Source: a virus. From it: a DNA stretch of 31,021 bases. Each line of letters starts with the position of its first letter. Position 1 is the first letter of the stretch. Under the pieces are notes generated by a model. That model had not been told where the DNA came from. It made no database searches and worked only from the letters and a program-made list of their open reading frames with translations. Where the stretch lies: positions 1-31,021 of IMG/VR virus record IMGVR_UViG_3300017764_000056; one strand, given 5' to 3'. Position numbers and translations under genes: made by a program. Below are positions 5,831 to 19,156 of this stretch, piece after piece.

Positions 5831-6255
5831 TATCGCATAAACCTTTCTAAGTTAGTATTTTCTCTAGGTATATCTAAAATAATATTAATAAATTGTTCAA
5901 GTCTCACTATATGTGTTTTATAGCCACGAATAAATTCATCATCTTTAAGATGGGATATTACACATTTCCCTATATCATGATTACCTTTTATAATATAAAC
6001 TTCATCAAAATTATACTTTTTCCAGTATTTCCATACTTTATGTGGAAGTTTTTCTTCAACACTACCTCCAACATTCTGATTAGTACAATCAACATATATT
6101 TTTTTATTCCCTATTTGTATAATAAAATCTATCTCAAAATTTCCTTCTTTTTGATAGGCGTATGGTATGTTATAATATTTTAATAAATTTTTCAACTGTT
6201 TTTCTAAATTTTTACCAGACTTATTTGCAACAGATGCATCCGTTAATTTAGTCAT
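5830..6255 (-). CDS. PD-(D/E)XK-like nuclease-fold protein, putative
   Basis: 141 residues. The arrangement resembles small restriction-endonuclease-fold proteins: a helix with GKNLEKQ (about 14-20), then EIDFII (about 41-46), a strand KIYVDCTNQN (about 52-61), and GGSVEEKLPHKVWKYW (about 63-78), which recalls the GS-EK segment following the catalytic core in this superfamily. The usual catalytic Lys of the (D/E)xK motif appears as Thr in DCT, so either another residue replaces it or the protein is not an active nuclease. Its ATG overlaps the stop of the Mom-like gene (ATGA), so the two form one unit between clamp-loader genes 44 and 62. A homing-type nuclease or a modification-sensitive nuclease are both possible. 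Confidence 0.5.
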   Translation of the reverse strand: MTKLTDASVANKSGKNLEKQLKNLLKYYNIPYAYQKEGNFEIDFIIQIGNKKIYVDCTNQNVGGSVEEKLPHKVWKYWKKYNFDEVYIIKGNHDIGKCVISHLKDDEFIRGYKTHIVRLEQFINIILDIPRENTNLERFMR

Positions 6256-7046
6256 GCCATGAACTTTTCTAACGATGGAGAATTTAAACCAACATTTTTA
6301 ATGTTATATATAACATTATCAAAAGTAAATGGTGGTTTTTTTATTTCTTGTTTAGGTAGTATTGTTTTATCAAACCATTTTAAATCCTTATCTTTTGGAT
6401 ATTCTTTTGTCCATTTCATATTACTATTTTTAATATATTTTTTTGCAGAATTATTTAATGGATAAATGTATCTAAACATAAATCCTTCAATAAGCTTTAT
6501 GTTTTTATGTGTCATAAAATCTCTAGTCATCCAAAACAATTTATCCCTATTAGAATAAACACAATTTTCTTTTAAAAGATTTTTTGTACTTCTTGGATGC
6601 AATTTTTCTCCATTTTCCATCATATATACTTGAGTAAAATACTTCCCTCCATAAAGAAAATTAGATGCTTGGTAAACATATCCACATTTCCCCATGATTC
6701 CATCTGCTAGTGTATAAAGAAAAAGTAAGTTTGGATATTTTTTCTTAAGCCATCGTACTGTATGAGATAACATTTGAGATTCAGAATTACGAGGCATATC
6801 TTCACTCATACACATTTTACCTATTTCAAAATAACTTTTAGTGCTTAAGCCTGTAAACATTTTGTTAATAGTATGTTTGGGCTGTGTTCCCCACCCTAAA
6901 GTAAGAACTCCTTTTAATTTTCCGTCAATAAAAAAACCTAAAAAATGTTTAGTTAGCTTTGGCATTACTGGAGAATAGTGATATTTTTGAACAAAAAATA
7001 CAGCATTCTCTTTTGTTATGTCTCCAACTGTATACTCAAACCTCAT
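6252..7046 (-). CDS. Mom-like DNA modification protein (GNAT fold)
   Basis: 264 residues. The first 135 residues match what I know of the phage Mu Mom family: KYHYSPV (about 21-27), a GNAT-like strand pair GFFIDGKLKGVLTLGWG (about 37-53), EIGKMCMSEDMPRNSES (about 74-90, compare the Mom-family ELNRM and PRNSES signature), and YTLADGIMGKCGYVYQASNF (about 111-130). Tyr24, Asp115 and Tyr125 fall where Mom-family catalytic residues are expected. Mom adds a carbamoylmethyl group to adenine and protects phage DNA from restriction. The region beyond residue 140 is lysine-rich and not recognised. It overlaps gene 44 upstream and the nuclease-like gene downstream by ATGA junctions. The base and group modified here cannot be inferred. 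By eye it looks more AT-rich than genes 44 and 45, which fits a later insertion. Confidence 0.7.
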   Translation of the reverse strand: MRFEYTVGDITKENAVFFVQKYHYSPVMPKLTKHFLGFFIDGKLKGVLTLGWGTQPKHTINKMFTGLSTKSYFEIGKMCMSEDMPRNSESQMLSHTVRWLKKKYPNLLFLYTLADGIMGKCGYVYQASNFLYGGKYFTQVYMMENGEKLHPRSTKNLLKENCVYSNRDKLFWMTRDFMTHKNIKLIEGFMFRYIYPLNNSAKKYIKNSNMKWTKEYPKDKDLKWFDKTILPKQEIKKPPFTFDNVIYNIKNVGLNSPSLEKFMA

Positions 7047-8993: not shown

Positions 8994-9434
8994 TTAGTTG
9001 ATAGAAATCATTCTAGATCTTTTTTTCTCTGGAACAATTCTTTCAAGGTCAATTTTCAAAAGTCCATTTACCATGCTTGCACTTTTAACAAATACATCTG
9101 CTGATAAAGTAAATGTCCTATTGAACGCTCGTTTAGAAATACCTTTGTGAAGATACTCATCGTTAGAGCCTTCTTCATCTATCCTCTTCGGCACAATTGA
9201 ACGAATAGAAATTTTACTTTCTTTTGTTTCAATTTCAACATCCTCCTTCTCAAAACCTGCAACTGCAAGTTCAATGACGAAATGCTCATCATCTTTTTTT
9301 ATGAGATTGTAAGGTGGATAGTTGTTTCCGTATGTTGAACCTGCCGTGCTGACATTGTTCATTAAAGAATCGAAGATAGAATCAAATCCTACACTGAGTG
9401 TACGAACATGATCGTAAGTAGGTATGTTGCTCAT
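8994..9434 (-). CDS. hsp20: Small heat shock protein (Hsp20/alpha-crystallin)
   Basis: 146 residues. The alpha-crystallin domain is visible from about 45 to 135: HFVIELAVAGFEKEDVEIE (about 51-69), then KSASMVNGLLKIDLERIVPE (about 116-135) with the GLLKIDL strand typical of the family, and a short C-terminal ISI motif of the I-x-I type used for oligomer assembly. It is an ATP-independent holdase that binds unfolding proteins; hsp20 genes are common in marine T4-type phages. The ATG follows AAGGAG at an ideal distance. Its leader holds both a sigma70-type promoter and a T4 late octamer (9494-9524) plus a stem-loop, suggesting expression early and late in infection. Confidence 0.95.
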   Translation of the reverse strand: MSNIPTYDHVRTLSVGFDSIFDSLMNNVSTAGSTYGNNYPPYNLIKKDDEHFVIELAVAGFEKEDVEIETKESKISIRSIVPKRIDEEGSNDEYLHKGISKRAFNRTFTLSADVFVKSASMVNGLLKIDLERIVPEKKRSRMISIN

Positions 9435-9463
9435 TAGTTTCTCCTTATATTAAGCAAGATTAA

Positions 9464-9492
9464 AGTAGGAAACCCTTTCGGCATTTCCTACT
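9464..9492 (-). terminator. Stem-loop in the hsp20 leader
   Basis: Minus strand: AGTAGGAAA (9484-9492), an 11-base loop that can form CC-GAAA-GG, then TTTCCTACT (9464-9472). Nine perfect pairs plus a GNRA-type tetraloop. It is followed by TTAATCTTG, a poor T-run. Transcripts from the promoter at 9494-9524 should begin at about 9489, leaving six pairs of the stem at the very 5' end of the RNA. For RNA reading through from purN it could act as a weak terminator or processing site. Confidence 0.5.
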
Positions 9493-9493
9493 C

Positions 9494-9524
9494 TATTTAT
9501 ACATGAACTAGATTCAAATGTCAA
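9494..9524 (-). promoter_or_regulatory. Combined sigma70-type and late (TATAAATA) promoter of hsp20
   Basis: Minus strand: TTGACA (9519-9524), 17-base spacer, TATAAA (9496-9501). The -10 box is part of TATAAATA (9494-9501), an exact match to the T4 late promoter octamer read by the gp55 sigma factor. One site could therefore be used by host sigma early and by gp55 late. The -35 box lies in the last codons of the purN region. Confidence 0.72.
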
Positions 9525-10086
9525 GAAAAAATATTTTTTTTACAATTTCTGGAAAAAGAATATATTCAGCCTGGTGAATTCTAGTTGCAAGAGTCTTTTC
9601 TGTATCATCAGAGAAGATTGGAACTGGCCTTTCTGCAATAATGGTTCCAGTATCTATGCCTTCATCCACAAAATGAACACTACATCCTGTTACATCTTTA
9701 TGGGATTTGAAAGCATCTTTAATAGAATGAGCTCCTTTGAAATAAGGTAGAAGAGATGGATGTAGATTAATAATGTTGCCTTTCCATGTATCTAAAAGTT
9801 CAGAACCAATTATTTTCATATAACCAGATAATACTATACCATCGACATTATAAAATGTCAACACTTTTTTTATATTTTTTTCATATTCTTTTTTATCTGT
9901 AAATTCAGACAATTGGTGTGTCCAGCAAGGAACTTCATAAAACTTGACTTTTTCTACAACTGGTGCATTTGGATTATCACAAATAAGAACAACCCACTCT
10001 ACTGGAAGACATCCACTTTTTGTTGCTGAAAGAAGAACTTCAACATTACTTCCATTTCCAGATGCAAAAATTGCAAGTTTTTTCAT
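9514..10086 (-). CDS. purN: Phosphoribosylglycinamide formyltransferase PurN
   Basis: 190 residues, near the usual length of about 190-210. Catalyses the third step of purine synthesis, transfer of a formyl group from 10-formyltetrahydrofolate to glycinamide ribonucleotide. The N-terminal loop FASGNGSN (7-14), the segment LSGYMKII (about 86-93), the catalytic Asn and His in INLHPSLLPYFKGAH (about 106-120), and the catalytic Asp in VDEGIDTG (about 140-147) are all present. The ATG overlaps the TGA of purF (ATGA), so the first and third enzymes of the pathway are made together. It is one of the auxiliary metabolic genes expected to raise the purine supply for phage DNA. Confidence 0.96.
   Translation of the reverse strand: MKKLAIFASGNGSNVEVLLSATKSGCLPVEWVVLICDNPNAPVVEKVKFYEVPCWTHQLSEFTDKKEYEKNIKKVLTFYNVDGIVLSGYMKIIGSELLDTWKGNIINLHPSLLPYFKGAHSIKDAFKSHKDVTGCSVHFVDEGIDTGTIIAERPVPIFSDDTEKTLATRIHQAEYILFPEIVKKIFFLDI
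9833..9861 (-). promoter_or_regulatory. Possible promoter inside purN
   Basis: Minus strand: TTGACA (9856-9861), 17-base spacer, TATAGT (9833-9838). The spacer holds a partial inverted repeat GACATT/AATGTC, resembling the palindromic spacer of the promoter at 63-91. It lies wholly in coding sequence and could be chance. Confidence 0.25.
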
Positions 10087-11474
10087 ATATCTTTAAATCC
10101 CGTAAGTAAAGGTATATTTGTTGTATCTGGATATTCACCATTAAAACAAGCTAAACATGGAGTTGTCGAATCTTTTTTTCCTATCGACTTTATCATTGAA
10201 TCTTCTGAAATATAATACAAAGAATCTGCTTTAATTTCTTCACATATTTCATCTATAGAGAAGTTTGCAGCTATGAGTTCTGCACGGTTTGGAGTATCTA
10301 TTCCATAAACACAAGAATATCTAATTGGAGGAGAACTAACTTTTAAATGAACTTCTTTAGCTCCTGCATCTTTTAATAACTTAACAATTCTTTTACTAGT
10401 ATGCCCTCTAACTAAAGAATCATCAACTAAAATTACTCTTTTATTTTTTACTACTTTCTTAACAACTCCTAATTTCATTTTAACACTTTGAGTTCGTAAC
10501 ATTTCACTGGGCTGTATAAATGTTCTTCCTACATAGCGATTCTTAATCATACCAACTTCATAAGGTATTCCAGATGCCTCTGCATAACCTATTGCAGAAG
10601 AAATACCACTATCTGGAACACCTATTACAATATCAGCATCTGTATGAGATTCATGCCACAATTGTCTTCCCAATTTCTTTCTAGAAAGATGAACATTAAT
10701 TCCATTTATATCACTATCTGGTCTTGCAAAATATATATACTCAAAAGAACAAATTCTTTTAGGGAGAGGAGATGCATATAAAACACTTTTTAATCCAAAC
10801 TTATCTATAATTATCATTTCACCGGATTTTACATCACGAACAAATTCTGCACCTACTGCATCAAATGCACAAGTTTCTGATGCAACTACCCATGAATCAC
10901 CTAATTTTCCAATAGATAATGGTCTAAATCCTCTTGGGTCTTGTACAGCAATCAGTTTATCATTTGTCAGAACAACTAATGCATATGCTCCCCCTACTTC
11001 TCTTAATGCAGAACGTAAAGATTGTTCTACAGACAGTTTATTTCTTTTAGCCATTAGGTGTGAAATAACTTCTGTATCACTATCAGTTTGAAATATTGAA
11101 CCTTGTAACTCTAATTTTTCTTTTAAAATATCTGCATTGACTAAATTACCATTATGTGCAATTGCAACTTGTCCACCTTTATATCTGAACTTTAAAGGTT
11201 GAGCATTTGATATTGAACTAGAACCAGCTGTAGTATATCTTACATGCCCTATTGCATGATTACCTTTTAATTCTTTAATATAAGTTTTACTTATTGCTTC
11301 AACTACTAATCCCATTCCACAATGCAATTTTAATTCTTCACCATCAGATGTGCAAATACCTGCACTTTCTTGACCACGATGCTGAAGAGCATGAATACCA
11401 TAATATGTTATTTCTGAAGCATCTGTATGATTAAAAATACCAAAAACACCGCATTCATCATTTATTTCTTGCAT
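10083..11474 (-). CDS. purF: Amidophosphoribosyltransferase PurF, iron-sulfur type
   Basis: 463 residues. Catalyses the committed first step of purine synthesis, making phosphoribosylamine from PRPP and glutamine. The N-terminal glutaminase has Cys8 in ECGVFG after a seven-residue propeptide, as in the Bacillus-type enzyme. The PRPP-binding loop is VILVDDSLVRG followed by HTSKRI (about 350-366), with His where Thr is common. Four cysteines that could ligate a 4Fe-4S cluster are present: one in KRICSFEY (about 242), one in RYSCVYGID (about 391), and the pair in PCLACFNGEYP (about 443-446). This indicates the oxygen-sensitive Fe-S class rather than the shorter E. coli class. It overlaps the deformylase gene upstream by 17 bases and purN downstream by ATGA. 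Unusual as a phage gene compared with purM, purH or purL. Confidence 0.97.
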   Translation of the reverse strand: MQEINDECGVFGIFNHTDASEITYYGIHALQHRGQESAGICTSDGEELKLHCGMGLVVEAISKTYIKELKGNHAIGHVRYTTAGSSSISNAQPLKFRYKGGQVAIAHNGNLVNADILKEKLELQGSIFQTDSDTEVISHLMAKRNKLSVEQSLRSALREVGGAYALVVLTNDKLIAVQDPRGFRPLSIGKLGDSWVVASETCAFDAVGAEFVRDVKSGEMIIIDKFGLKSVLYASPLPKRICSFEYIYFARPDSDINGINVHLSRKKLGRQLWHESHTDADIVIGVPDSGISSAIGYAEASGIPYEVGMIKNRYVGRTFIQPSEMLRTQSVKMKLGVVKKVVKNKRVILVDDSLVRGHTSKRIVKLLKDAGAKEVHLKVSSPPIRYSCVYGIDTPNRAELIAANFSIDEICEEIKADSLYYISEDSMIKSIGKKDSTTPCLACFNGEYPDTTNIPLLTGFKDI

Positions 11475-12006
11475 TTTTTTGTTTAATTTTTTCTTTTTTT
11501 ATTGCCTTTGAAGCTTTTCTTTTTGCAATATCAAGTTTTAAAGGGGAAACTAATTGTGTAAAATTTCTTCCTTCCATATGGTCATATTCATGCTGAAAAA
11601 CTCTTGCTGTAATATTATCATATTCTTTTTCATATTCAATACCATCTATATCTTGATATTTAACTTTAATACTATATGGTCTACTAATATCTAAAAATAA
11701 AAATGGATAAGTTAAACAGCCCTCACTAAATACTATTTCATTTTCTGACTCCCAAATAATTTCTGGATTAAACATAGCTTCATGTACTTTATTATCCCAA
11801 TCAGTATACATTACAAACATTCTAACCATTACCCCACACTGATTTGCACTTAAGCCTATACCACCACACTCTGACATTGTTTCAAATAAATTATTATATA
11901 GTTGAGATGGTGTTAAATGATACATCTCTTCAAATGTATCAAAAGAAACATTTCCTAATTTATTTTTTAAAATTGGGTCATCTGGTCTTAAAAATTTATA
12001 TGTCAT
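11458..12006 (-). CDS. def: Peptide deformylase
   Basis: 182 residues. Removes the formyl group from N-terminal methionine of new proteins. All three family motifs are intact: GIGLSANQ (49-56), EGCLT with metal ligand Cys97 (95-99), and HEYDH with ligands His139 and His143 and catalytic Glu140. The C-terminus is short and very basic (KRKASKAIKKEKIKQKN). Phage deformylases are known from marine phages and are thought to speed processing of phage or photosystem proteins; the role here is not evident. The ATG overlaps the stop of the 3' part of gene 46 (ATGA). Confidence 0.95.
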   Translation of the reverse strand: MTYKFLRPDDPILKNKLGNVSFDTFEEMYHLTPSQLYNNLFETMSECGGIGLSANQCGVMVRMFVMYTDWDNKVHEAMFNPEIIWESENEIVFSEGCLTYPFLFLDISRPYSIKVKYQDIDGIEYEKEYDNITARVFQHEYDHMEGRNFTQLVSPLKLDIAKRKASKAIKKEKIKQKNARNK

Positions 12007-15698: not shown

Positions 15699-17153
15699 CT
15701 AGATCTTTACTCTATTAATAGTATAGTCAAAATATTCAGTATTGTATATATTTATTCTTTCCATAAAATGATTCAAAGTATAATTCTTTTTCTTACCATG
15801 AGTGAAGTCATCAGCTATATCAAAAAGAGAAGCAGAGGATTTAGATTTATTTTTTCTTAATACTCTACCTATAGACTGAAGTGTACGAATCCTAGATTTA
15901 CTAGGACTAGCAAAAATAATATTATGTAGATTTTGAATATTGATACCTGTGCTAAATGTTCCATATGATGCAATAATTATTACATCATTATTTAATTCTG
16001 ACAGAGCTCTAACTTCTTCTCTCATTTCTGTATCCGTTTTACCATAAACAAAAAATACTTTTCTATCAGTTCTTGAAGAAATAAATTCATATAAGTTTTT
16101 TCCATGTTTTTCTACGAATTGAAATAATACTAGTGTATTGTATTTTAATCGTAATGTCAAGTCTGAAATAAACTTGTTTCTTCTAGGATGTTGAGTTATG
16201 TAATCCATTTCTTCTTGATATGACATGTTTTTGACTATTTTACATTCTTCTTGATTGTATGTTAGTACAATAGCTTCAATATGTAGGTCTGAAATGGTCT
16301 TATTGTCTATTAATTCCTTTGTGGTGACTACTTTCTGTACTTTACCGAATAAACCCTCAAGTACAAGTCTATGAGTTTGACTTCCGTCCAATGTACCAGT
16401 TAATCCAAATCTATATTTTGTAAGATGCAATTTATGCATTAAAGATGTAAGTGATTTGGCTTTGAATAAATGACATTCATCACCAACTACAGCACCAAAT
16501 TGTTCAAAGTATTTTATTGGAAATTTATAAAGAGATTGCCATGTAGAAATTACAACAGGTTTTGTTACAATTCTATCATGTCCAGAATAGATTTTTTGTA
16601 TGTTTGATTCCTGCCAACCATAGTCAACAAAGTCTGAAGACATTTGCTCAACAAGAGATGTAGTAGGTACAATAATAAGAAAATGATTTACTTTTTCTAA
16701 ATAATAACGAACTAAACAATAGATTATTAATGACTTGCCTGAAGCAGTAGGGCTAAGTAACAATGCCCGATGGTTTCGGAGTGCATGTGCCAATGCATTA
16801 ATTTGATAATCTCTTGCTTTAAGTTTTTTACTTTTTGTTCTAAGATTGAGTGTGTTAGTGAATGCTTGAACATCATCATCAGATATGTCAAGTCCATCTA
16901 ATAACTCCTCTGATACATCATAATTAATTTCCTGTTCTTGAAGATATTCTGTTATATAATTATAGAGCCCAACATATATTTCCCCCTTCATCATGTTGTA
17001 TAAACGTATTTTACCATCCCACACCCGATTACGAAAAGAAGGCATAAACTTTGCGCCAGGAACATCAAAAGTAAAATAATCTGATAATTGCCTTGCTATA
17101 TATGGTTCACATTCAAGTTTTAAAAAAACTTCATTCTTTTTACTAATTAACAT
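15699..17153 (-). CDS. uvsW: Recombination helicase UvsW
   Basis: 484 residues; T4 UvsW has 503. Superfamily 2 helicase motifs in order: Q-like ARDYQINAL (about 113-121), motif I SPTASGKS (134-141), motif Ia VPTTSLVEQ (about 162-170), motif II DECH (225-228), motif III GLTGT (250-254), and motif VI QSIGRVLRK (about 436-444). The N-terminal 100 residues fit the UvsW DNA-binding domain. It unwinds recombination intermediates and R-loops and favours the switch from origin to recombination-dependent replication. Its ATG lies inside the end of the upstream two-TM protein gene. It is separated from uvsY by the three membrane-protein genes. Confidence 0.96.
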   Translation of the reverse strand: MLISKKNEVFLKLECEPYIARQLSDYFTFDVPGAKFMPSFRNRVWDGKIRLYNMMKGEIYVGLYNYITEYLQEQEINYDVSEELLDGLDISDDDVQAFTNTLNLRTKSKKLKARDYQINALAHALRNHRALLLSPTASGKSLIIYCLVRYYLEKVNHFLIIVPTTSLVEQMSSDFVDYGWQESNIQKIYSGHDRIVTKPVVISTWQSLYKFPIKYFEQFGAVVGDECHLFKAKSLTSLMHKLHLTKYRFGLTGTLDGSQTHRLVLEGLFGKVQKVVTTKELIDNKTISDLHIEAIVLTYNQEECKIVKNMSYQEEMDYITQHPRRNKFISDLTLRLKYNTLVLFQFVEKHGKNLYEFISSRTDRKVFFVYGKTDTEMREEVRALSELNNDVIIIASYGTFSTGINIQNLHNIIFASPSKSRIRTLQSIGRVLRKNKSKSSASLFDIADDFTHGKKKNYTLNHFMERINIYNTEYFDYTINRVKI

Positions 17154-17652
17154 CTTTAGGTGGTAAAAAACTTTTAGGTCTAATTTCTGTTAAAGATAAT
17201 GCTCCTCCTCTTGACTTTAAAGTTCCACCCGATGAAGTAGATTCTTCTCCTTTAGTACCACTTTTACTTCCTTTCATATTATCATAAAATTGTCCTTCTA
17301 CCATCCCACCACCTTCCATTATTCTTCTAGCTCTTTCTAATTCTCTATGGTCTTCTATATTATATGGCACATATATTGCTTTAGGAATGCTTTCTCCTTT
17401 TATTATTATCCATAAATAAAAATGTTCTTCATTTTCTCCTACATAATAATTCACTAAATAAAACTGATTTTCGTTTGTTTTTGCTACTGGATAACCAAAA
17501 ATACTATCAAAATAAAAATAAGTTCCTGCAATAAAAAATAATGATAATGGTATGATGTAAATCATATGAACACTTTTCTTTAGCTCTATGAGCAAATAAA
17601 GAAAAATACTTAATAAAATAATTGCTGCAATAATTAAATATGTCATTCCCAT
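17143..17652 (-). CDS. Membrane protein with two N-terminal transmembrane segments, third gene of the ExbB/ExbD-like cassette
   Basis: 169 residues. Two hydrophobic segments at about 3-23 and 31-51 flank a short basic turn (ELKKSVH). Then comes a mixed domain (about 55-110) and a low-complexity tail rich in Gly, Ser and Lys (about 111-169). No family recognised. The start ATG at 17652 is chosen because AGGAGG lies 7 bases upstream; that sequence is itself part of the Glu codon run ending the ExbD-like gene. A second ATG at 17646 forms an ATGA overlap. Being coupled to the ExbB/ExbD-like pair it may be its partner, comparable in position to TonB or TolA, but no such similarity is visible. Confidence 0.75.
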   Translation of the reverse strand: MGMTYLIIAAIILLSIFLYLLIELKKSVHMIYIIPLSLFFIAGTYFYFDSIFGYPVAKTNENQFYLVNYYVGENEEHFYLWIIIKGESIPKAIYVPYNIEDHRELERARRIMEGGGMVEGQFYDNMKGSKSGTKGEESTSSGGTLKSRGGALSLTEIRPKSFLPPKDVN

Positions 17653-18308
17653 GGCTCTTCCTCCTCTTCTTCATCATCATTTCTAGGATGAAAATGTATT
17701 TCTGGATCTCCAATCATATCTTCAATTCTTTTTACAATATTTTTAGGAAGATAATTTATATTTTTATAATCACCATCTTCATCCATAGTAAATCTTACAA
17801 ATGTTTCTTCTTGACCTTCTTCAACAAATTCTTTACTTCCTTGATATATTACTTTAAATGGATTAATTTTTATAAGCTCTATTGATACTTTATTGCGAAC
17901 ATTTGCTTTATCTCCATTATTGTAATAAAATGCGTTTACAATATATTCACCTTTCTGAAATCCTCTAATACTAACAACTTCTCTGTTTATGTAAATAATT
18001 TTTTCAACCCCTCCATTTATAATTACATCATTTCTGTGACCTAAATCATCTTTATCTAGAAACATATTACCCTGCTGAGGATTTCTAAATCCTACTGAGC
18101 CACTTGGGCCCTGCACCCATAAATCAATATCATTATTTAAATCATCATCCCAGCTAAGAATAATCATGTATTCTGCTTTTTGCTCTACTCCTTGGTTCTT
18201 TTTAGGTTCATTTATTAGTATAAAACTAATAATAAAAAGAAAAACAAATCCTAAAATAAGATTAAAAAGTAAATCAACAAATGCAAGATTGCTATTATGA
18301 TTTCTCAT
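17643..18308 (-). CDS. ExbD/MotB-like membrane protein with a YfaP/DUF2135-like beta-sandwich domain
   Basis: 221 residues. A short N-terminal tail and one transmembrane helix (about 10-33) with an Asp at its start (FVDLLFN, Asp12) match the ExbD, TolR, MotB and ZorB arrangement, in which this Asp carries protons. Residues about 45-155 form a predicted beta-rich extracytoplasmic domain; LSWDDDLNNDIDLWVQGPSG and MFLDKDDLGHRNDV resemble the D-x-D-L-W-V and D-x-D-D segments of YfaP/DUF2135-type domains. This replaces the peptidoglycan-binding OmpA-like domain of MotB. The C-terminus is a Glu-rich tail (DDEEEEEEPWE). It overlaps the ExbB-like gene by 14 bases. I believe similar proteins occur in other marine T4-type phages but cannot verify this. 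Role unknown. Confidence 0.75.
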   Translation of the reverse strand: MRNHNSNLAFVDLLFNLILGFVFLFIISFILINEPKKNQGVEQKAEYMIILSWDDDLNNDIDLWVQGPSGSVGFRNPQQGNMFLDKDDLGHRNDVIINGGVEKIIYINREVVSIRGFQKGEYIVNAFYYNNGDKANVRNKVSIELIKINPFKVIYQGSKEFVEEGQEETFVRFTMDEDGDYKNINYLPKNIVKRIEDMIGDPEIHFHPRNDDEEEEEEPWE

Positions 18309-18735
18309 TTTCTACCATTATTAATTGACATTTAATTAATACACTTGAAATTAAACCTACAAGAGTAGTAAGAAGAGCTGTTCCCATTCCTTGTGCCATC
18401 ATCATTAAACTATTTTGCAGATTAGAAGTATCTGATAAATCTATTCCAGAAAATACGGAATATAGCATGTAAATAAATCCAATCACTGTTCCAATCATAC
18501 CCAAAGATATAACAGCTTCACTCGCAAACCATTCTTTATTATAACTATAATCTTTTTTTGTCCATAACTTGTATCCTATAACAAAAGTTGTAAAAGAAAA
18601 TATAGTTCCTATAAGTAAACTAATTTTAGTAAAATCATTTTGATAAATAAAATTTCCAAAATCAAAATATAAACTAGTTGCAATACCCATAATAATCAAA
18701 ATTAAAAACAACCACCATTTTAAAAACTTTTTCAT
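18295..18735 (-). CDS. MotA/TolQ/ExbB-like proton channel protein
   Basis: 146 residues with four predicted transmembrane helices (about 5-24, 38-58, 72-95, 115-138). The last two carry the family core: LGMIGTVIGF (about 78-87) with Thr83, and GTALLTTLVGL (about 118-128) with Thr119 and Thr123, close to the GLLGTVxG and ALxTTxxGL patterns of TolQ and ExbB. The large cytoplasmic domain of MotA or TolQ is missing, so this is a minimal channel. AAGGAG lies 9 bases before the ATG. The next gene codes for an ExbD/MotB-like partner, so together they could form a 5:2 rotary motor driven by the proton motive force. It follows uvsY by one base. Confidence 0.82.
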   Translation of the reverse strand: MKKFLKWWLFLILIIMGIATSLYFDFGNFIYQNDFTKISLLIGTIFSFTTFVIGYKLWTKKDYSYNKEWFASEAVISLGMIGTVIGFIYMLYSVFSGIDLSDTSNLQNSLMMMAQGMGTALLTTLVGLISSVLIKCQLIMVENEKS

Positions 18736-18736
18736 T

Positions 18737-19156
18737 TCAATCTACTCCTTGTGAAAATTGTTGAAATTTAATTGCATTGCTAATATGAAAACTTCTATTA
18801 TTTAATATTTTTATTACTTCTTCTAAATACTCTAAAATACTTTTTACATATTCCATTTTATCTTTATACTTGATTAATTCATCATCACCTTCTAATACAT
18901 TAGGTATTTCAGTTTTTAATAACTTGCCTGGATAAGGTCTATCCCCTTTTCCACTGTAATGTTCCCATTTGTCTCTATAACAAACTTTATATTTGTTTTC
19001 TGCTGATTTATGAATAAGTTTTATTTCAGAGTGGAGCTTTAAATACTTGTGGTGAATTTCTGGGGTTCTTAAAGATTCTTTATCTAATTGATAGATGTCT
19101 ATTTTTACATCTTTATCAAATTCATTTTGTATTTCAGAAAGGTTCATAATATTCAT
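18737..19156 (-). CDS. uvsY: Recombination mediator UvsY
   Basis: 139 residues; T4 UvsY has 137. Matches the UvsY pattern along its length: LSEIQNEFDKDVKID (about 6-20), HSEIKL (about 42-47), YSGKGD (about 67-72), EIPNVLEGDDEL (about 83-94), YVKSILEYLEEVIKIL (about 103-118) and RSFHISNAIKFQQF (about 121-134). UvsY helps load the UvsX recombinase onto single-stranded DNA coated with gp32. Two near ATGs (19156 and 19147) are possible and neither has a clear ribosome binding site. As in T4 it lies upstream of uvsW, but here three membrane-protein genes lie between. Confidence 0.9.
   Translation of the reverse strand: MNIMNLSEIQNEFDKDVKIDIYQLDKESLRTPEIHHKYLKLHSEIKLIHKSAENKYKVCYRDKWEHYSGKGDRPYPGKLLKTEIPNVLEGDDELIKYKDKMEYVKSILEYLEEVIKILNNRSFHISNAIKFQQFSQGVD

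Follow-up and report, generated by a model that had tools for sequence, protein, structure and literature searches.

Known roles of MotA/ExbB-class motors are motility and gliding, the import of nutrients, maintenance of the outer membrane, and defence. This proton motor family has been reviewed (PMC9389320), and Ton and Tol are three-component motors (PMC12215075). A survey of MotAB relatives describes, in the passages matched by term, generic ion transporters that have added domains and no known function, and these passages do not mention the three genes analyzed here (PMC12505986). Our search of the literature on phage-encoded ExbB/ExbD, TerD with ExbB, phages with SbmA and ClpP, and DUF2135 found no description of the trio, with subscription papers and preprints lying largely outside its coverage. 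We read the trio, P1-P2-P3, as an unnamed three-gene branch of the MotA/ExbB-class motors. With a probability of roughly 0.7, it forms a self-contained motor of the MotA/TolQ/ExbB class, driven by the proton motive force (PMF), in which the B subunit and the third subunit are both new.

Gene layout and the proposed channel subunit P1

The window (the whole stretch of DNA analyzed, 31 kb) is a fragment of a marine T4-type phage and carries genes for terminase, sheath, tube, capsid, sigma 55, gp46/47 and DNA polymerase. The features of the locus, in the minus-strand order uvsY, P1, P2, P3, uvsW, are as follows.

18737..19156, minus strand: uvsY, neighbor upstream of the trio; PF11056, E 2.7e-32
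18295..18735, minus strand: P1 (A subunit), 146 aa; MotA/TolQ/ExbB family, without a large cytoplasmic loop
18634..18636, minus strand: P1 Asp34 codon, in the loop joining hydrophobic segments 1 and 2; invariant in 43/43
18487..18489, minus strand: P1 Thr83 codon in GMIGTVIG, third hydrophobic segment; T in 40/43 homologues
18364..18366, minus strand: P1 Thr124 codon in ALLTTLVGL, fourth hydrophobic segment; T/S in 43/43
17643..18308, minus strand: P2 (B subunit), 221 aa; one transmembrane (TM) helix, 11-strand beta-sandwich, acidic tail
18273..18275, minus strand: P2 Asp12 codon, putative proton carrier; invariant in 69/69 aligned homologues
17143..17652, minus strand: P3 (third subunit), 169 aa; two TM helices, then an OB/SH3-like barrel
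15699..17153, minus strand: uvsW helicase, neighbor downstream of the trio; PF21241; phrog_16, E 2.8e-104

A sequence-only reading of this DNA had placed three overlapping genes between uvsY and uvsW, and the open reading frames were recovered there. The junctions consist of a 1-bp gap, between the uvsY stop and the P1 start, or overlaps of 10–14 bp, including that of P3 with the start of uvsW. Such packing makes joint translation of P1, P2 and P3 probable. For the late-promoter motif TATAAATA, allowing one mismatch, we counted 139 sites against 113 expected, and they are so numerous in this AT-rich DNA that no promoter was assigned from the motif. Elsewhere in the window, we observed a DNA methyltransferase gene (1062-2288), a gene for a Mom-like DNA modification protein (phrog_1384) amid clamp-loader genes (6252-7046), a cluster encoding Hsp20, phosphoribosylglycinamide formyltransferase, a glutamine amidotransferase-like protein and peptide deformylase (8994-12006), and two tail-tube-like (phrog_45) genes within this one phage fragment (19192-19767 and 25231-25830).

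P1 matched the MotA_ExbB profile PF01618 with an E value of 8e-8 and 32.5 bits, above the curated cut-off of 22.9, in agreement with the MotA/TolQ/ExbB-type channel proposed earlier, and the profile was also matched by 42 of the 43 aligned homologues (E<=0.01). A PDB profile search using 12 P1 homologues retrieved MotA (8gqy, E 1.8e-5), ZorA and, weakly, TolQ chains. The hydrophobicity of P1 shows four segments (about 3-30, 35-54, 69-98 and 116-143), with the motif helices last, as in MotA; the description of P1 as ExbB-like thus holds for the family profile but not for the number of segments, which is three in ExbB. The phage protein has about 146 aa and most bacterial homologues about 200–280 aa; most of the difference lies in the cytoplasmic loop that joins segments 2 and 3, which the phage form lacks. 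Among the 43 homologues, D34, G79, G82 and G127 are invariant. Polar residues are conserved in both channel helices, at position 83 (Thr in 40) and position 124 (Thr or Ser in each of the 43), and these two threonines may face Asp12 of P2.

The nearest relative of P1 in PADLOC is ZorA (E 1.6e-6), and ZorA structures also rank high. Such similarity would fit a Zorya-like membrane motor that serves in superinfection exclusion or in defence against other phages, but this role is unlikely, as P1 has no long ZorA tail, P2 has no OmpA domain and ZorC, ZorD or ZorE do not recur beside the trio. The adjacent helicase is the core gene uvsW, which adjoins the trio in the window lineage only.

Proposed subunits P2 and P3

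The AlphaFold2 model of P2, built with 69 sequences (pLDDT 88), consists of a TM helix (5-32) followed by an 11-strand beta-sandwich (45-185). Asp12, near the start of the helix, is the sole invariant helix residue in 69/69 aligned P2 sequences, which were picked to align from near the N-terminus, a choice that favors conservation at this position. An independent draw of Pseudomonadota genomes contained one chromosomal subfamily (L197-L203) with the Asp about one helical turn earlier. The single helix headed by Asp12, as read from the sequence, was recovered in the model, and both Asp12 and the paired gene are conserved among the homologues. In the sandwich region, W53, D60, D62, L84, D87, D88, G90, E110 and F173 are invariant, and the invariant motif DxDLW...LxxDDxG formed there points to a possible metal site at its acidic residues.

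Neither P2 nor any of its 69 members matched PF02472 (ExbD/TolR) at E<=0.1, and the MotB and OmpA profiles of Pfam matched none of them. Membership of P2 in the ExbD/TolR or MotB families was therefore rejected, and its earlier classification as a MotB/ExbD-type protein was not supported by profile. The same reading had P2 without a peptidoglycan-binding domain, which agrees with our data: none was detectable by Pfam, and the modelled fold is a beta-sandwich. Neither P2 nor P3 could be assigned to a family by searches of PHROGs, NCBIfam and PADLOC.

The beta-sandwich had been likened to YfaP/DUF2135. A sandwich is indeed modelled, but the likeness to DUF2135/YfaP is weak by sequence, and TerD-type chains are the best match by fold. 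DUF2135 (PF09906) matched 7 of the 69 members at E<=0.1 (best 0.018), none above the cut-off, and hhalign aligned P2 with YfaP at P 7.3e-5 and a probability of 62, with SWD..D.DLxV..P.G as the common motif. In the fold search (VIA), TerD-type chains came top (Z 11.3, 10.3 and 9.8), led by 3ibz (Z 11.3, rmsd 3.7, 141 aligned), and the DUF4425 group reached Z 6.4. Homology to TerD is not supported by sequence: TerD ranks first by fold, yet the profile comparison gave a probability of 0.3%, and no TerD appeared in the PDB profile search. TerD and DUF2135 were also sought in ten host genomes, and neither was found.

With its conserved aspartate, the channel might simply let protons through, and the trio might then collapse the PMF without mechanical work. 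This explanation is very unlikely, because it leaves no need for P3 or for the P2 sandwich, which is large, conserved and marked by invariant residues.

The AlphaFold2 model of P3 (pLDDT 81) shows helices at 2-23 and 27-52 and a small barrel at 60-157. A positively charged KK loop joins the two TM helices, and by the positive-inside rule both ends of P3 would be periplasmic. No P3 family was found in Pfam and the collections named above, and no PDB chain was convincingly similar. P3 had been described as a two-TM protein of unknown family; the two helices and the lack of a family match are as described, but the C-terminal beta-barrel had been overlooked.

Distribution and gene neighborhoods

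The order P1-P2-P3 is kept in 88 of 98 IMG/VR loci, which do not represent 98 different phages because some contigs were taken repeatedly with different flanks. In INPHARED, P2 is present in 27 records, all of Rhizobium/Sinorhizobium phages, including Pootjesviridae and phage 16-3. The genes had been expected to stand unannotated in related phages, and in these records P2 is indeed called "hypothetical" or given a gene number only. GIY-YIG (Seg-like) homing endonuclease genes lie between P1 and P2 in Rhizobium phages (L027:5096-5833 and L028:5063-5821), and a similar-looking secreted protein of no known family is encoded after the trio at two chromosomal loci (L205:8136-8831 and L206:8172-8885; genomes G256 and G241).

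More than 80 loci emerged when bacterial genomes were scanned. They lie in Alpha-, Beta- and Gammaproteobacteria, where the trio is a stand-alone chromosomal operon, apart from a few in MAGs that bear the label Nitrospira or Patescibacteria and may be misbinned. Of 80 bacterial loci, 74 have the complete trio recognized and 78 have P1 with P2, and these loci have no recurrent neighbors. In the even draw of 299 Pseudomonadota genomes, P2 was found in 13, the query genome included; at the 12 places followed, P1 was adjacent in 12/12 and P3 in 11/12. Overall, several phage lineages and a few per cent of the sampled Pseudomonadota species carry the trio. The P2 tree requires three changes between phage and bacterium, sets the 16-3 group apart from the marine group, and nests some chromosomal copies among phage copies. 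Close pairs have dN/dS of ~0.09-0.2, and the 13-row alignment of homologues was too diverse for locus scans. Because the order is kept across phages and bacteria, Asp12 is invariant and dN/dS is low, the trio is not a chance arrangement, and the strong purifying selection in phages indicates that it probably does something useful in infection.

The stand-alone operon in Pseudomonadota is consistent with a Tol-like motor for envelope maintenance, with which the phage would stabilize or remodel the envelope of the infected host; the chromosomal copies may serve the bacterium in the same way, and Ton and Tol likewise have three components. However, no Pal-, TolB- or TonB-like or outer-membrane partner gene recurs beside the trio and no peptidoglycan-binding domain was found, so we regard this role as unlikely.

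The genomic context of the trio varies. The setting between uvsY and uvsW, as first described, applies to the window lineage only, and other loci lie among neck/tail genes, beside suf genes, near a late sigma factor or in bacterial chromosomes. The position among late neck/tail genes in several T4-type contigs, together with a lysozyme gene some genes upstream in RHph_TM3_3_14B and RHph_X2_25, would suit a device for lysis or lysis timing that acts on the envelope late in infection. Such a device is quite unlikely, since the trio is common in bacterial chromosomes, is often near replication genes in rhizobiophages and showed no holin or spanin linkage. In two viral contigs, L018:3-4521 and L017 (IMG/VR 3300034375_009923 and 3300004369_000730), sufB, sufC-like, sufS and sufE genes adjoin the trio by Pfam, along with a GroES-like gene, ClpS and additional SUF-like ORFs.

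The best new lead is that the viral gene neighborhoods favor a link to periplasmic proteolysis, which was absent from the earlier proposals. One viral group comprises 42 loci (L063-L104), which are not fully independent because they fall into 20 clusters when P2 is grouped at 90% identity. In 41 of them, a protein with a signal peptide and the motifs SxGG, CxSxC and GFH is encoded, directly upstream of P1 in 40 cases. It had no match in the Pfam search; by its motifs it is a putative ClpP-fold serine protease and may be active as one. The same group encodes SbmA (PF05992, E 9e-122) in 34/42 loci, mostly directly after P3, and ClpP in 36/42. In the nearest relatives of the window (L008/L037, L035 and L036), SbmA lies ~3 kb downstream, and ClpS directly follows P3 in L017/L018. 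SbmA/BacA peptide transporters were seen in viral contigs at, for example, L089:7041-8015 and L008:12714-13685, and SbmA in the isolated-phage collection was confined to four records, all looking like bacterial contigs.

In the 16-3 group, a gene for a trypsin-like protease precedes P1. Of the 27 phage records with P2, 24 encode such a protease (23 found with tblastn and RHph_N3_19 with Pfam), against ~15 of the remaining 50,670 records, and several of those ~15 resemble bacterial contigs; the figure of 24/27 is an association and not a test, because these phages share hosts and ancestry. Phages encoding the trypsin-like protease were predicted to have the trio as well. This held for RHph_X2_25 and failed for phiM9, whose whole genome was covered, and for LP.1 and MT835589, and the trio was not found in the portions read of KZY1 and MW462191, despite their protease. 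The protease link is absent from most window-like loci. The ClpP-fold, SbmA and ClpP families were found at 0/80 bacterial trio loci, and no such protease, SbmA or ClpP gene was seen in the annotated parts of the window.

Proposed mechanism and comparison with known systems

In the motor that we propose, P1 would form a multimeric ring in the inner membrane, pentameric by analogy with 5:2 motors. Two P2 helices would sit inside the ring and carry protons one by one on Asp12, and proton passage would move the periplasmic beta-sandwich of P2. P3, with two helices and a periplasmic barrel, may gate the channel or pass force on to a target in the host envelope, as TonB and TolA do. As to its role, we tentatively prefer that the trio assists proteolysis in the periplasm, since a secreted serine protease, the peptide importer SbmA and ClpP are encoded alongside many of the viral versions; this is possible rather than probable. 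A fuller version, which we regard as doubtful, is that an undescribed three-subunit PMF motor pulls or unfolds envelope proteins for the secreted serine protease, after which the phage SbmA would import the peptides, ClpP would finish them and the amino acids would feed the phage. If the protease link is true, it would represent a new way of powering extracytoplasmic proteolysis. The trio is open to experiment in hosts and phages that are in culture (Azospirillum; Rhizobium phages 16-3 and P10VF).

Compared with known systems, P1 shares the channel helices of MotA, TolQ and ExbB (PF01618; MotA 8gqy), including the GxxGTxxGF and AxxTTxxG motifs, whereas the cytoplasmic loop of MotA and of the bacterial P1 homologues is almost absent from the phage form. 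P2 resembles ExbD/TolR and MotB in its single N-terminal helix, one invariant Asp and a gene beside that of the A subunit, and as a B subunit with one TM helix and a conserved Asp it is also like those of 5:2 rotary motors. Its periplasmic part, unlike theirs, is a beta-sandwich and neither an ExbD/TolR domain nor an OmpA-like peptidoglycan binder. The sandwich has a sequence motif in common with DUF2135 (E. coli YfaP), by a weak match, and its predicted fold is closest to TerD, but no P2 member exceeds the DUF2135 cut-off and there is no sequence similarity to TerD. To our knowledge, a membrane helix with such an Asp has been described for neither family.

The likeness to Zorya ZorAB lies in ZorA as the nearest PADLOC relative of P1. 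In contrast to ZorA, P1 ends after its last hydrophobic segment, P2 is without the OmpA domain, no ZorC, ZorD or ZorE recurs and P3 resembles no Zorya part. Membership in Zorya was therefore rejected for the lack of tail, OmpA domain and partners, uvsW being a core T4-type gene and not ZorD. P3 may be compared with TonB and TolA only by analogy: the motor pair is likewise encoded together with one more membrane protein, but instead of a long linker P3 combines two helices with a small barrel.
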